DNA of 64,000 bases, taken from NCBI RefSeq assembly GCF_024639375.1, contig NZ_JAHEIM010000001.1, positions 62,001 to 126,000 on the forward strand. The letters are read 5' to 3'. Made by a program: the position numbers and the translations under genes. Below are positions 23,829 through 60,970 of this stretch, one piece after another; the first letter of the stretch is position 1; each line of letters starts with the position of its first letter. The notes under the pieces were generated by a model. The model was not told where the DNA came from, did no database searches, and saw only the letters and a list, made by a program, of their open reading frames with translations. Source of the stretch: Rhodoluna sp. Lineage in GTDB: Bacteria; Actinomycetota; Actinomycetes; Actinomycetales; Microbacteriaceae.

Positions 23829-24221
23829 TTAGTTGGCCGGCTCTGAAAGGTCGCCAATTTCGGCATCTTGTTTTTCAATCTCGGCACGAATTTCGTTCAT
23901 GTCAAGATCGCGCACAGCGGCGATAAGTTCTTCTAGGCCAGCACCTGGCAATGCGCCTGGGCGGTTGTAAAGCAAGATGCCATCGCGAAAGACCATCAGA
24001 GTAGGAATTGAGCTGATGCCCGCTTCACCGGCTAGTTGCTTTTCAGCTTCGGTGTCTACCTTGCCAAAGGTGATGTCTGGGTGCTTGGTCGAAGCCTCTT
24101 CAAAGATTGGCGAGAACTGACGGCAAGGGCCACACCACTCTGCCCAAAAATCAACAATGGTGATGCCTTCTTTAACAACGGTGTCGCCAAAAGTTTCAGC
24201 GCCTAGTTCAATGCTTGCCAT
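23829..24221 (-). CDS. trxA: Thioredoxin
   Basis: A 130-residue cytoplasmic thioredoxin with active site WCGPC (Cys30 and Cys33) and cis-Pro loop SIPTLMVFRDG. A charged C-terminal tail of about 23 residues (EIRAEIEKQDAEIGDL) extends beyond the usual 105-110 residue fold and may form a short helix. The start is 2 bases after the aldo/keto reductase stop, and the ribosome-binding site (AGGA) is inside that gene's last codons, so the two are co-transcribed. No thioredoxin reductase is in the window. Confidence 0.95.
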   Translation of the reverse strand: MASIELGAETFGDTVVKEGITIVDFWAEWCGPCRQFSPIFEEASTKHPDITFGKVDTEAEKQLAGEAGISSIPTLMVFRDGILLYNRPGALPGAGLEELIAAVRDLDMNEIRAEIEKQDAEIGDLSEPAN

Positions 24222-24223
24222 CT

Positions 24224-25228
24224 TTAAAGTCCTAATCCTTGAATTGCATGTTCATCGATTTGCTTCAGTTCTTGAAGCGTCAAACTAGGTGAACTAATTG
24301 CGGCCAGGTTTTGTTCCAGCTGCTGCACAGAACTTACTCCCACCAGTGCCGAAGCCACGGTTGGCTGGCGAAGCACCCACTTCAAAGCCAGTTGGCTCAG
24401 GCTTTGGCCACGACCCTTGGCAATTTCATTTAGCGCTCGGGCGTGAGTTAGGTAGTCAGCGCTGATTCTTTCGCTCTTTAGGTAGTGCTCTTGAGCTGCC
24501 CTGGAGCCTTTGGGGGCGAATCCCGATAAGTAGCGGTCTGAAAGTAATCCCTGCGCCAATGGTGAAAAGACAATCGCGCCCACGCCTTCGACGCCAAGGG
24601 TGTCGAAAAGTGCGGTCTCTGGGGTGCGATCGAACATTGAGTAGCGCGGCTGGTGAATCAGCAGGGGCACGCCCATTGAATCGAGGATTGCCTTTGCCTC
24701 GCGAGTCTGGGCAGCGTCATAGCTTGAAATGCCCACATAAAGCGCACGACCAGATTGCACTGCGGTTGCAAGTGCACCCATGGTTTCTTCAAGGGGAGTG
24801 TTCGGGTCAAAGCGGTGTGAATAAAAGATGTCAACGTAGTCGAGCTGCATGCGCTTGAGGCTTTGGTCAAGCGATGCCAAAAGATATTTGCGTGAACCCC
24901 ACTCGCCATAAGGTCCTGGCCACATGTCATAACCGGCTTTGCTCGAAATGATTAATTCATCGCGATATTTGGCGAAGTCCTTTTTCATGTGCTTGCCAAA
25001 GTTTGCTTCGGCCGAACCAAAGGGAGTGCCGTAATTATTTGCCAAATCAAAGTGAGTGATGCCAAGGTCGAATGCACGACGCAAGATTGTGCGCTGGCTC
25101 GAGAGGCTGGTGGTGTTGCCAAAGTTATGCCAGAGGCCCAGTGAGATTTCTGGAAGTTGCAAGCCACTCTTGCCCACGCGGCGGTATGGCAACTGCTGGT
25201 AGCGGTCTTCTTGTGCTTGATAACTCAT
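24224..25228 (-). CDS. Aldo/keto reductase (YghZ/glyceraldehyde-3-phosphate reductase-like)
   Basis: A 334-residue NADPH-dependent TIM-barrel reductase. The catalytic tetrad is visible: Asp and Tyr in HFDLANNYGTPFGSAE, Lys in IISSKAGYDMWPGPYG, His in DIFYSHRFDPNTPLEE. The WPGPYGEWGSRKYL segment is characteristic of the AKR14/YghZ group, which detoxifies methylglyoxal and reduces L-glyceraldehyde-3-phosphate. It is operonic with trxA and divergent from msrA. Start ATG 25228 has no Shine-Dalgarno; its -10 box overlaps that of msrA in one palindrome. Confidence 0.93.
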   Translation of the reverse strand: MSYQAQEDRYQQLPYRRVGKSGLQLPEISLGLWHNFGNTTSLSSQRTILRRAFDLGITHFDLANNYGTPFGSAEANFGKHMKKDFAKYRDELIISSKAGYDMWPGPYGEWGSRKYLLASLDQSLKRMQLDYVDIFYSHRFDPNTPLEETMGALATAVQSGRALYVGISSYDAAQTREAKAILDSMGVPLLIHQPRYSMFDRTPETALFDTLGVEGVGAIVFSPLAQGLLSDRYLSGFAPKGSRAAQEHYLKSERISADYLTHARALNEIAKGRGQSLSQLALKWVLRQPTVASALVGVSSVQQLEQNLAAISSPSLTLQELKQIDEHAIQGLGL

Positions 25229-25234
25229 GCGTCA

Positions 25235-25244
25235 AGCCTAGGCT
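25235..25244. promoter_or_regulatory. Palindromic shared -10 element for two divergent leaderless genes
   Basis: AGCCTAGGCT reads TAGGCT on both strands (plus 25239-25244, minus 25240-25235). Each copy lies exactly 6 bases from a start codon: ATG 25251 (msrA) and ATG 25228 (aldo/keto reductase). A -35-like TTGATA (25217-25222) with a 16-base spacer serves the plus strand. Neither gene has a Shine-Dalgarno. Confidence 0.65.
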
Positions 25245-25250
25245 AGAGCC

Positions 25251-25772
25251 ATGATGAGTTTCGTTTTGGGTGGCGGTTGCTTTTGGTGTCTCGATAGTTG
25301 CTACACGCAATTTAAGGGTGTTCAAGATGCGGTGGTTGGCTACATGGGTGGCTCAATTGCAAACCCCGGATACGAGGCTGTGTGTGGTGGTAATACCGGC
25401 CACGCCGAAGTGGTCAAAGTGATTTTTGATGAGTCGGTTATTCCGGCGGATGTGATTCTCGATTTGTTCTTCACCATGCATGACCCAACCCAGTTGAACC
25501 GACAGGGCCATGACGTTGGCACTCAATATCGCTCTGTGATGTTTTATGCCGATGATTCGCAGAAGCAAATGTTCGAGGCTGCTATTTCTCGTGCTGCCGA
25601 GCTTTGGGATGGCGAAATCGTGACTGAGCTGTCACCGGCAACTGAATTTTGGGTAGGCGAGGAGTATCACCAAGATTTCTTCGACAAGAATCCAAATCAG
25701 GGATACTGCAACGCAGTGGTCGCGCCAAAGATGGCCAAGACCCGCGCTGTGTTCACAAATTTCTTGAAGTAG
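25251..25772 (+). CDS. msrA: Peptide-methionine (S)-S-oxide reductase
   Basis: MsrA repairs oxidised methionine (S-sulfoxide) in proteins using thioredoxin. The 173-residue product begins with the catalytic motif GGGCFWCLDSCY, the nucleophilic Cys being in GCFWC near residue 10. It continues with VVGYMGG, YEAVCGGNTGHAEVV and DPTQLNRQGHDVGTQYRS, all family signatures. The ATG at 25251 is chosen because it lies exactly 6 bases from TAGGCT; ATG 25254 is in frame next to it. trxA, the likely electron source, is in the divergent operon. Confidence 0.97.
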   Translation: MMSFVLGGGCFWCLDSCYTQFKGVQDAVVGYMGGSIANPGYEAVCGGNTGHAEVVKVIFDESVIPADVILDLFFTMHDPTQLNRQGHDVGTQYRSVMFYADDSQKQMFEAAISRAAELWDGEIVTELSPATEFWVGEEYHQDFFDKNPNQGYCNAVVAPKMAKTRAVFTNFLK

Positions 25773-59560: not shown

Positions 59561-60025
59561 CTAAAACGAGGCCGTGTAAAGGTTGTCTAGGTCGACTACC
59601 TTTTGAACGCGGCGGGCATACTTCGGTTCGCTAGTGCCCAGCCACTCTGTGGTCATCCAAACGCGAACAATCTCAAGGGCAATAGCCGAGCCAATGAGCT
59701 TGCCGCCCAAGCACAGCACATTGGTATCGCTGTGCGAGCGGGCGAGTTCCGCGCAAAATGAATCTTGACAAACAGCGGCAAAAATACCTCGCAGCTTGTT
59801 CGCGATCATTGCGCTGCCGTAGCCAACTCCATCAACAAATATTCCGCGGTCTGCTTCACCCTTGGCTACAGCCAGGGTGGCTGGCAAAACGTAGTCGGGT
59901 AAATCCGCTGCTTCATCTGTGTCGGTGCCAAAGTCGGTAACCGTGTGCCCCATAGATTCAAGCAGTGCCCTAATCTCCAATTTGAGAGAGCGACCTGCGT
60001 GGTCGCTGGCAATTGCAATATGCAT
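59561..60025 (-). CDS. RpiB/LacAB-family sugar-phosphate isomerase, second paralogue
   Basis: 154 residues with the RpiB fold (IAIASDHAGRSLKLEIRALL; HSDTNVLCLGGKLIG). The active-site segment is FVDGVGYGSAMIANKLRG: it has neither the catalytic Cys of E. coli RpiB nor the GNGEQ of the actinobacterial RpiB at 35077. This makes a different substrate or chemistry likely. Similar GxGxGSA segments occur in RpiB-like isomerases of other four- or five-carbon sugar phosphates. It overlaps the DUF167 gene (TAATG) and lies close to deoC, hinting at deoxyribose-phosphate or related sugar metabolism. Confidence 0.85.
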   Translation of the reverse strand: MHIAIASDHAGRSLKLEIRALLESMGHTVTDFGTDTDEAADLPDYVLPATLAVAKGEADRGIFVDGVGYGSAMIANKLRGIFAAVCQDSFCAELARSHSDTNVLCLGGKLIGSAIALEIVRVWMTTEWLGTSEPKYARRVQKVVDLDNLYTASF

Positions 60026-60252
60026 TAGTCATTCCTTACTTGAACTCGTTTTATGCGTGAGGTGAAGCCTGATTCAATTTCAATCTTGGACTTTGCAATT
60101 CCGTAGTGTTTGGCAAGAACTTCGATGAGGCCTTCGTTGGCGGCGCCATCCACAGCGCGTTCTTTGATAAAAACGGTGAGTGCGCCATCGGCATCGGTTT
60201 CAACCAAAGGCCCCTTTTTGGAACCTGGCTTAACTTTCACTGTCACACGCAC
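60025..60252 (-). CDS. DUF167 (YggU-like) protein
   Basis: A 75-residue protein of the DUF167 fold: VTVKVKPGSKKGPLVE at the start, DGALTVFIKERAVDGAANEGLIEVLAKHYGI in the middle, SGFTSRIKRVQV at the end. The biochemical function is unknown. The GTG start at 60252 is supported by TAGATT exactly 6 bases upstream, sharing bases with the deoC -10. Translationally coupled to the RpiB-like gene. Confidence 0.9.
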   Translation of the reverse strand: MRVTVKVKPGSKKGPLVETDADGALTVFIKERAVDGAANEGLIEVLAKHYGIAKSKIEIESGFTSRIKRVQVRND

Positions 60253-60258
60253 ACGACC

Positions 60259-60268
60259 AATCTAGACT
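60259..60268. promoter_or_regulatory. Near-palindromic shared -10 element for two divergent leaderless genes
   Basis: AATCTAGACT supplies TAGACT on the plus strand (60263-60268, 6 bases before ATG 60275) and TAGATT on the minus strand (60264-60259, 6 bases before GTG 60252). Geometry is identical to 25235-25244: 23 bases between the first bases of the two start codons. CTGTCA at 60240-60245 could be a plus-strand -35 at 17 bases. Confidence 0.65.
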
Positions 60269-60274
60269 GTGAAT

Positions 60275-60970
60275 ATGACCAAAACCTACCGCGGCCTCAC
60301 GCTAAAGCAAGTTGCTCAGACAATCGATCACTCAATCTTGAAGCCTGACTTCACCTATGCCGATGTCGAAGCTGGGGCAGCGGTTGCGCTCAAATGGGCA
60401 ACTGCTTCTTATTGCATTCGCCCTATGGATGTGCCTGCCGCTGCAAAGTTGCTGGCTGGTTCTGGTGTGAACGTGTGCACCGTGATTGGTTTTCCGCACG
60501 GCTCAGCAACTACCGCCAGCAAGGCGTTTGAAACCAAAGATGCCATCGAGAATGGCGCGGTTGAAATCGACATGGTTTTGAATATCTCGGCGCTGCTTTC
60601 GGGCGATTTCGATTATGTTCGCGAAGACATCAAGGCAGTGGTTGATGTGGCTCATGCCAAAGATGCCAGCGTCAAAGTGATCTTTGAAACTGCCTTTTTG
60701 AACGATGAGCAAATCGTCAAAGCCTGTGAACTAACCGAGGCGGCTGGCGCCGACTATGTAAAGACCTCAACGGGTTTCGCGAGTGAAGGTGCCACACTGC
60801 ACAACGTGCAGCTGATGAAGGCAACTGTGGGCGACCGCCTAAAGGTCAAGTCATCAGGTGGCGTGCGCACCCTCGATCAGCTAATTGACTACATGGACGC
60901 AGGGGTCACTCGTTCTGGTTGTTCGGCCACTGAAGCCGTTTTAGAGGAATTTCAGCAAAAAGCGGAATAA
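60275..60970 (+). CDS. deoC: Deoxyribose-phosphate aldolase
   Basis: Cleaves 2-deoxyribose-5-phosphate to acetaldehyde and glyceraldehyde-3-phosphate through a Lys Schiff base. I use ATG 60275 (231 residues), because it sits 6 bases after TAGACT; GTG 60269 is in frame. IDHSILKPDFTY, YCIRPMDVPAA, VCTVIGFPHGSATTASK, EIDMVLNISAL and the Schiff-base motif DYVKTSTGFASEGAT are all present; KVKSSGGVRTL carries the second lysine. No other deo genes adjoin, but the divergent RpiB paralogue may act on a related sugar phosphate. Confidence 0.97.
   Translation: MTKTYRGLTLKQVAQTIDHSILKPDFTYADVEAGAAVALKWATASYCIRPMDVPAAAKLLAGSGVNVCTVIGFPHGSATTASKAFETKDAIENGAVEIDMVLNISALLSGDFDYVREDIKAVVDVAHAKDASVKVIFETAFLNDEQIVKACELTEAAGADYVKTSTGFASEGATLHNVQLMKATVGDRLKVKSSGGVRTLDQLIDYMDAGVTRSGCSATEAVLEEFQQKAE

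Follow-up and report, generated by a model that had tools for sequence, protein, structure and literature searches.

Bidirectional promoters with overlapping -10 elements were reportedly described by Warman et al. in 2021. In promoters of this type, the -10 boxes of the two opposite strands overlap, and the accessible parts of the published accounts place the two start sites 18 bp apart most often (PMC10268837, PMC12825309), with 10 and 23 bp as further common distances (PMC12825309). According to the same partial text, 24% of the bidirectional promoters of E. coli sit between divergent genes, and five E. coli bidirectional promoters had a basal activity too low for polymerase competition (PMC12825309). 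In M. tuberculosis, the accessible part of one study describes leaderless genes that have a TANNNT box and no -35 motif and whose start codon is the +1 position. Moreover, closely juxtaposed divergent promoters are common in that organism, and prpD and its regulator form a divergent leaderless pair (PMC3898074).

In this study, a window of 64,000 nucleotides of Rhodoluna sp. DNA (the whole stretch that was analysed) was examined, with emphasis on the region between a DUF167 gene and a deoC-like gene. The element found there is like the overlapping -10 bidirectional promoters in that its opposed boxes share bases, and the core ANNNTANNNT together with 6 bases to +1 gives the predicted 23-bp class (PMC12825309, accessible text). 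Unlike bidirectional promoters known from start-site maps, as far as the accessible accounts describe them, its predicted +1 positions are the start codons themselves, so that a single stretch of 22 bases would serve as both intergenic DNA and core promoter. The fused layout is also kept at orthologous loci, which sets it apart from the bidirectional promoters in the accessible parts of the two publications (PMC12825309, PMC10268837). The likeness to the leaderless genes of M. tuberculosis lies in the TANNNT box, the lack of a -35 signal and the predicted start-codon +1, whereas the shared -10 box and the fixed start-to-start distance are seen only here when compared with the accessible description of that organism (PMC3898074). 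The overlapping -10 principle is already known; a doubly leaderless fused variant, with conserved promoters locked to two start codons, was not found described in the accessible portions of the open-licence literature.

The element between DUF167 and deoC

On the plus strand, positions 60250-60277 read CAC-ACGACC-AATCTAGACT-GTGAAT-ATG, with the AATCTAGACT core at 60259-60268 and a 6-base spacer on either side (Table 1). The first bases of the deoC ATG and the DUF167 GTG are 23 apart, and 22 bases lie between the two codons. The first-pass annotation had placed TAGACT on the plus strand and TAGATT on the minus strand, with 6-base spacers to ATG 60275 and GTG 60252, and had noted the same start-codon distance of 23 at the msrA locus; both readings were correct on the sequence, and the region 25226-25253 has identical geometry. 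The boxes TAGACT and TAGATT, on opposite strands, have the TA at 60263-60264 in common, as in the overlapping -10 class, and the predicted start-site distance of 23 would lie inside the 7-25 bp range of that class. Furthermore, a -10 box lies 6 bases from the start codon on both sides, and a Shine-Dalgarno (SD) site is absent from the 22 bases inspected ahead of the DUF167 and deoC starts, as in leaderless genes. The deoC gene is 79-84% identical in eight named relatives, all of which are MAGs.

The stop codon of DUF167 and the start codon of rpiB overlap (TAATG, window positions 60023-60027). Because the rpiB ATG overlaps the DUF167 stop, the two genes are likely co-transcribed, and the overlap suggests coupled translation of DUF167 and rpiB behind a leaderless first gene. 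The products of deoC and rpiB act on pentose phosphates, and MsrA uses thioredoxin; a functional link between genes sharing an element is plausible.

Table 1. Coordinates of the two fused elements and their neighbouring genes in the window.
Feature	Position	Strand	Basis or remark
GTG start codon, DUF167	60250..60252	-	predicted minus +1 = 60252; start kept in 13/16 head-to-head loci
Minus-side 6-base spacer	60253..60258	.	length conserved, letters variable
Minus -10 box TAGATT, TA common to plus box	60259..60264 (read 60264-60259)	-	genus -10 profile
Plus -10 box TAGACT	60263..60268	+	fits genus profile TA(G/A)(A/G)CT
Plus-side 6-base spacer	60269..60274	.	in-frame GTG at 60269, absent from other orthologs shown
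deoC-like aldolase gene, 231 aa	60275..60970	+	ATG at predicted plus +1; DeoC PF01791, E 6.3e-16
DUF167 (YggU family) gene, 75 aa	60025..60252	-	PF02594, E 6.7e-21
rpiB-like gene (LacAB_rpiB)	59561..60025	-	family match; behind DUF167
First copy, fused core AGCCTAGGCT, perfect palindrome, N6 both sides	core 25235..25244, whole element 25226-25253	.	pattern search; ortholog conservation
msrA (PMSR)	25251..25772	+	family match
Aldo/keto reductase gene, divergent from msrA	24224..25228	-	family match
Thioredoxin gene, behind aldo/keto reductase	23829..24221	-	

The core ANNNTANNNT consists of two opposed -10 boxes with TA in common. The box TANNNT and its complement ANNNTA are able to overlap through TA, and once either box is present, the opposite one takes no more than an A at -16. 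The word symmetric is therefore less demanding than it sounds, since two of the three fixed bases of each box belong to both. By our own derivation, boxes that overlap through TA and stand 6 bases from +1 in each direction would lead to start sites 23 bp apart.

Gene calling over 2.198 Mb from seven genomes of the Rhodoluna-like genus gave 2067 genes and 292 divergent pairs. A TANNNT box ended 6 bases ahead of the start in 207 of the 2067 called genes and 7 bases ahead in 76, while each remaining spacing within 0-19 accounted for 6 to 24 genes (about 14). A -10 box at 6-7 bases is well above background among these genes, which marks a leaderless class. The profile of the spacer-6 promoters (n = 117, three genomes) was TA(G/A)(A/G)CT, and a -35 signal was absent; in the same set, the frequency of A at -16 was 0.26, and position -8 was C in 72% and T in 7%. 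This -10 profile was obtained with the first gene caller, and the other counts that rest on called genes come from a wider threshold and start range; the first caller had missed the msrA pair, with the msrA start set 81 bases late, and the dut pair, with DUF3093 uncalled.

We consider it very likely that the 22 bases between the DUF167 and deoC starts form a complete core bidirectional promoter, doubly leaderless and of the 23-bp class, with the start codons as the probable +1 positions.

Conservation and partner genes in the genus

The pattern start-N6-ANNNTANNNT-N6-start was found twice in the window, compared with a shuffle mean of 0.09, and none of 100 shuffles reached 2. In the genome to which the window belongs (1.287 Mb), four places carried the pattern and none carried the pattern read backwards. 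Three of these four places are divergent gene starts, namely msrA/aldo-keto reductase, DUF167/deoC and dut/DUF3093 (contig C21). The fourth (L003) was rejected as a gene-start pair, the ATG of its minus gene being 52 bases off.

For deoC, 50 of the 59 genomes searched gave a match, and 30 loci were obtained, including 28 of the genus (L005-L032), one with its start cut off. Among the 27 genus loci with a start, the fused 6/6 element was present at 13 and not at 14. DUF167 adjoins deoC head to head in 16 of the 27 loci, and 13 of these 16 are fused; the head-to-head but unfused loci (L006, L008 and L009) are without the A at -16 and have a gap 9-11 bases longer. In L006, each -10 box keeps its own N6 spacing, which makes this locus a natural separated version of the promoter. 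In L022 (G008), the deoC match has one internal TGA, indicating a pseudogene or a sequencing error. The minus box of DUF167 is TAGATT in the window and TAAGTT in many relatives, with T at -8.

These data bear on a reading that we regard as unlikely, according to which only the plus promoter of deoC is genuine, the A at -16 contributes to it or makes no difference, and DUF167 is transcribed from another site or at a very low level. The second box costs just one base, and the A at -16 is present in 5 of the 11 deoC loci without an adjacent DUF167, so that this base may partly serve the plus promoter. In addition, the DUF167 box matches poorly at -8, and the DUF167 direction may be weak because its T at this position is a minority base (7% compared with 72% for C). 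However, the distance between the core and the DUF167 start, whether GTG or ATG, is exactly 6 bases at 13 of the 16 head-to-head loci, the A at -16 has a frequency of just 0.26 across leaderless promoters, and the opposite boxes of msrA and dut in the window's genome carry the usual C at -8. Moreover, it is deoC that lies upstream of DUF167, and no SD site was seen on inspection ahead of the GTG. A promoter that serves both genes is the reading that we prefer.

For msrA, 53 of the 59 genomes matched and 30 loci were obtained, 28 of them of the genus and with a visible start. The element is fused in 21 of these 28 loci (19 at 6/6 and 2 at 7/6) and arranged otherwise in 7. The partner genes at the 21 fused loci fall into two BLASTP clusters, comprising 12 aldo/keto reductases and 9 EamA-type genes (Pfam assignment from one member each). 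The palindrome AGCCTAGGCT is retained in six of the seven remaining loci (L036, L038, L039, L042, L046 and L051), in which the partner starts 24-36 bases past the predicted +1 and behind an SD-like stretch as judged by eye; the seventh, L047, is without the A at -16. In L036, L039, L042 and L046, the partner resembles the EamA type by eye. At the level of sequence, the palindrome at msrA mostly stays while the partner gene changes.

Two further arrangements were observed at msrA. Upstream of msrA in L038 and L051, no aldo/keto reductase is present; the first minus-side gene looks by eye like the thioredoxin that follows the aldo/keto reductase in the window, and it has a short leader that carries an SD and would begin at the unchanged predicted start site. 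In L039, the predicted minus +1 falls on the ATG of a ten-codon frame that ends in a stop codon overlapping the start (ATG) of the EamA-like gene; this frame is possibly a leaderless leader peptide, or a chance occurrence.

For dut, 57 of the 59 genomes matched; 30 loci, all of the genus, were used, and six further genus matches were left out. The dut/DUF3093 element is fused in 25 of the 30 loci (18 at 6/6 and 7 with spacers of 5-8) and not in 5. When the 6/6 elements of the three loci were compared by column, the spacer-column majorities ranged from 0.31 to 1.00, with the lowest values of 0.31, 0.32 and 0.39 at the three loci, and those of the non-fixed core columns ranged from 0.54 to 1.00, with at least 0.84 in 16 of 18; the four fixed bases are invariant because the set was defined by them. 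Some spacer columns did not vary either, so the spacers are not wholly free: at msrA these were plus-side bases one and two, and at dut they were two positions in one spacer and a single position in the opposite spacer.

We consider it quite improbable that the palindrome serves mainly to bind a dimeric regulator, its overlap with the promoter being incidental. It is true that the word AGCCTAGGCT ahead of msrA is perfectly palindromic and is retained at most loci, also with a different partner gene. Nevertheless, the 2.198 Mb sample contains 6 copies of AG[CT]CTAG[AG]CT, with a minus-side start triplet at exact N6 in 4 of the 6 (both sides in 2) and none in 2 of the 6, and the cores at deoC and dut are other words that are not full palindromes, yet have the same spacing.

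In other genera of the family, the dut sample comprised the loci of the best 28 of 77 with a match. Among these 28 loci, the dut -10 box was at 6/7 in 27, DUF3093 was found in 26, and the fused element was present in one (G070); the base at -16 was G in 20, C in 4, A in 2 and T in 1, and 39 was the commonest distance from dut to the candidate DUF3093 start. Parsimony suggests that the fused state at dut may have been derived near this genus.

Excess over chance at divergent gene pairs

The first-pass annotation had suggested that start-N6-ANNNTANNNT-N6-start is a recurring architecture, to be compared with shuffled sequence. When this comparison was run at the 292 divergent pairs, TANNNT at 6/7 on both sides was found in 29 start pairs no more than 60 apart, compared with a shuffle mean of 0.495 (0 of 2000 shuffles). 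The exact fused form makes up 4 of these 29 both-leaderless start pairs, and distances of 18, 24 and 31-58 occur too. In the 6/6 cases (n = 14), the start distances were 18 (2), 23 (4) and 31-58 (8), with none at 19-22 or 24-30. In a 16x16 grid of spacers from 0 to 15, the fused core at divergent pairs gave 4 matches at (6,6) and 3 at (7,6), together 7 of 22. Over all spacers, 55 fused matches fell at start distances of 11-45; part of the fused excess is the plus-side leaderless arrangement alone, because 21 of these 55 have a plus spacer of 6. The commonest start distance within 11-45 was 18 (14 combinations), and only 2 of the 14 were of the fused 18-type.

Since the stretches of the own genome had been picked knowing the matches, the test was rerun without that genome. 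In the six related genomes (246 pairs), one fused layout of the 6/6 form, three with a 7 and two of the 18-type were found. These 6 layouts compare with a shuffle mean of 0.124, and none of 2000 shuffles reached 6; two of the three layouts with a 7 are orthologs (G017 and G029), leaving 5 distinct loci, and the counts, which take in orthologs, are not fully independent. The exact 6/6 form alone occurred once in the six other genomes, compared with a shuffle mean of 0.0115, and was reached in 23 of 2000 shuffles. When gene context was ignored, the (6,6) cell held 7 on a mean of 1.36 per cell, and the reversed motif TNNNATNNNA held 7 on a mean of 3.68, a comparison that decides little alone because both (6,6) cells equal 7. 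No fused layout was present among 46 divergent pairs of two genomes from other families (G036 and G037, GC 0.72 and 0.62).

The family of fused layouts is therefore well above chance, and the exact 23 form is one member of it and not the rule; the proposed architecture is supported, by the shuffles and by orthologous loci in many species, as a minority layout. That two start codons and a frequent four-base motif met by accident is very hard to credit: the pattern is loosely specified, one of the four own-genome matches (L003) is no gene-start pair, and the exact 6/6 form of the six other genomes was reached in some shuffles, but the shuffles as a whole and the ortholog conservation contradict it.

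Further fused elements were seen in relatives. In G006, an 18-type element at L155:133-155 has a shared TANNNTA and starts 18 apart between menC-like and menB-like divergent genes (by eye), and an exact 6/6 element at L146:3322-3349 has the core AGTCTAGACT, a perfect palindrome, between glycosyltransferase-like and LysE-like genes (by eye). Fused elements with starts 24 apart and spacers 7/6 are identical in two species (L180:19214-19242 in G017 and L226:14321-14349 in G029) and sit between lipoprotein-like and thiL-like genes (by eye).

Proposed mechanism and biological meaning

In the bidirectional promoter that we favour, two sigma-70/SigA-type TANNNT -10 boxes would face each other on opposite strands with a TA step in common. 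Depending on its orientation, RNA polymerase would open the box and begin transcription either 7 bases further on, at the A of the ATG of deoC, or in the opposite direction at the G of the GTG of DUF167. The use of both orientations has indirect support from the ortholog conservation. The deoC and DUF167 mRNAs would then both be leaderless and translated without an SD site, and the DUF167 transcript would probably run on into rpiB. With a start codon at each predicted +1, a fused box would leave 23 as the only possible start-to-start distance. Polymerase could not occupy both orientations together, so the gene pair would be tied to one melting site, and the two genes may be co-regulated. Strong interference is not assumed, because the basal activities reported in the accessible text for E. 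coli are too low for polymerase competition (PMC12825309).

On balance, we lean towards the view that the genus stably inherits this bidirectional promoter, locked to its start codons, as a module whose fused -10 persists while different genes come to occupy the minus end (an aldo-keto reductase, an EamA transporter, or a thioredoxin that gained a new leader). On this view, the dut/DUF3093 fusion would have appeared early in the lineage, when a separated predecessor underwent the base change at -16 and a shortening of its gap. If this is true, 22-bp elements would be the complete intergenic regions for two genes, with one constraint shared by two -10 boxes and two leaderless starts.

These observations join -10 symmetry to leaderless mRNA, so that both start sites can be predicted with single-base precision from sequence alone. 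The three loci, with many species, partner swaps, and fused and separated versions, offer natural replicates for asking whether a shared -10 box couples the output of two genes. Moreover, the arrangement suggests a rule for start-codon choice in compact actinobacterial genomes.
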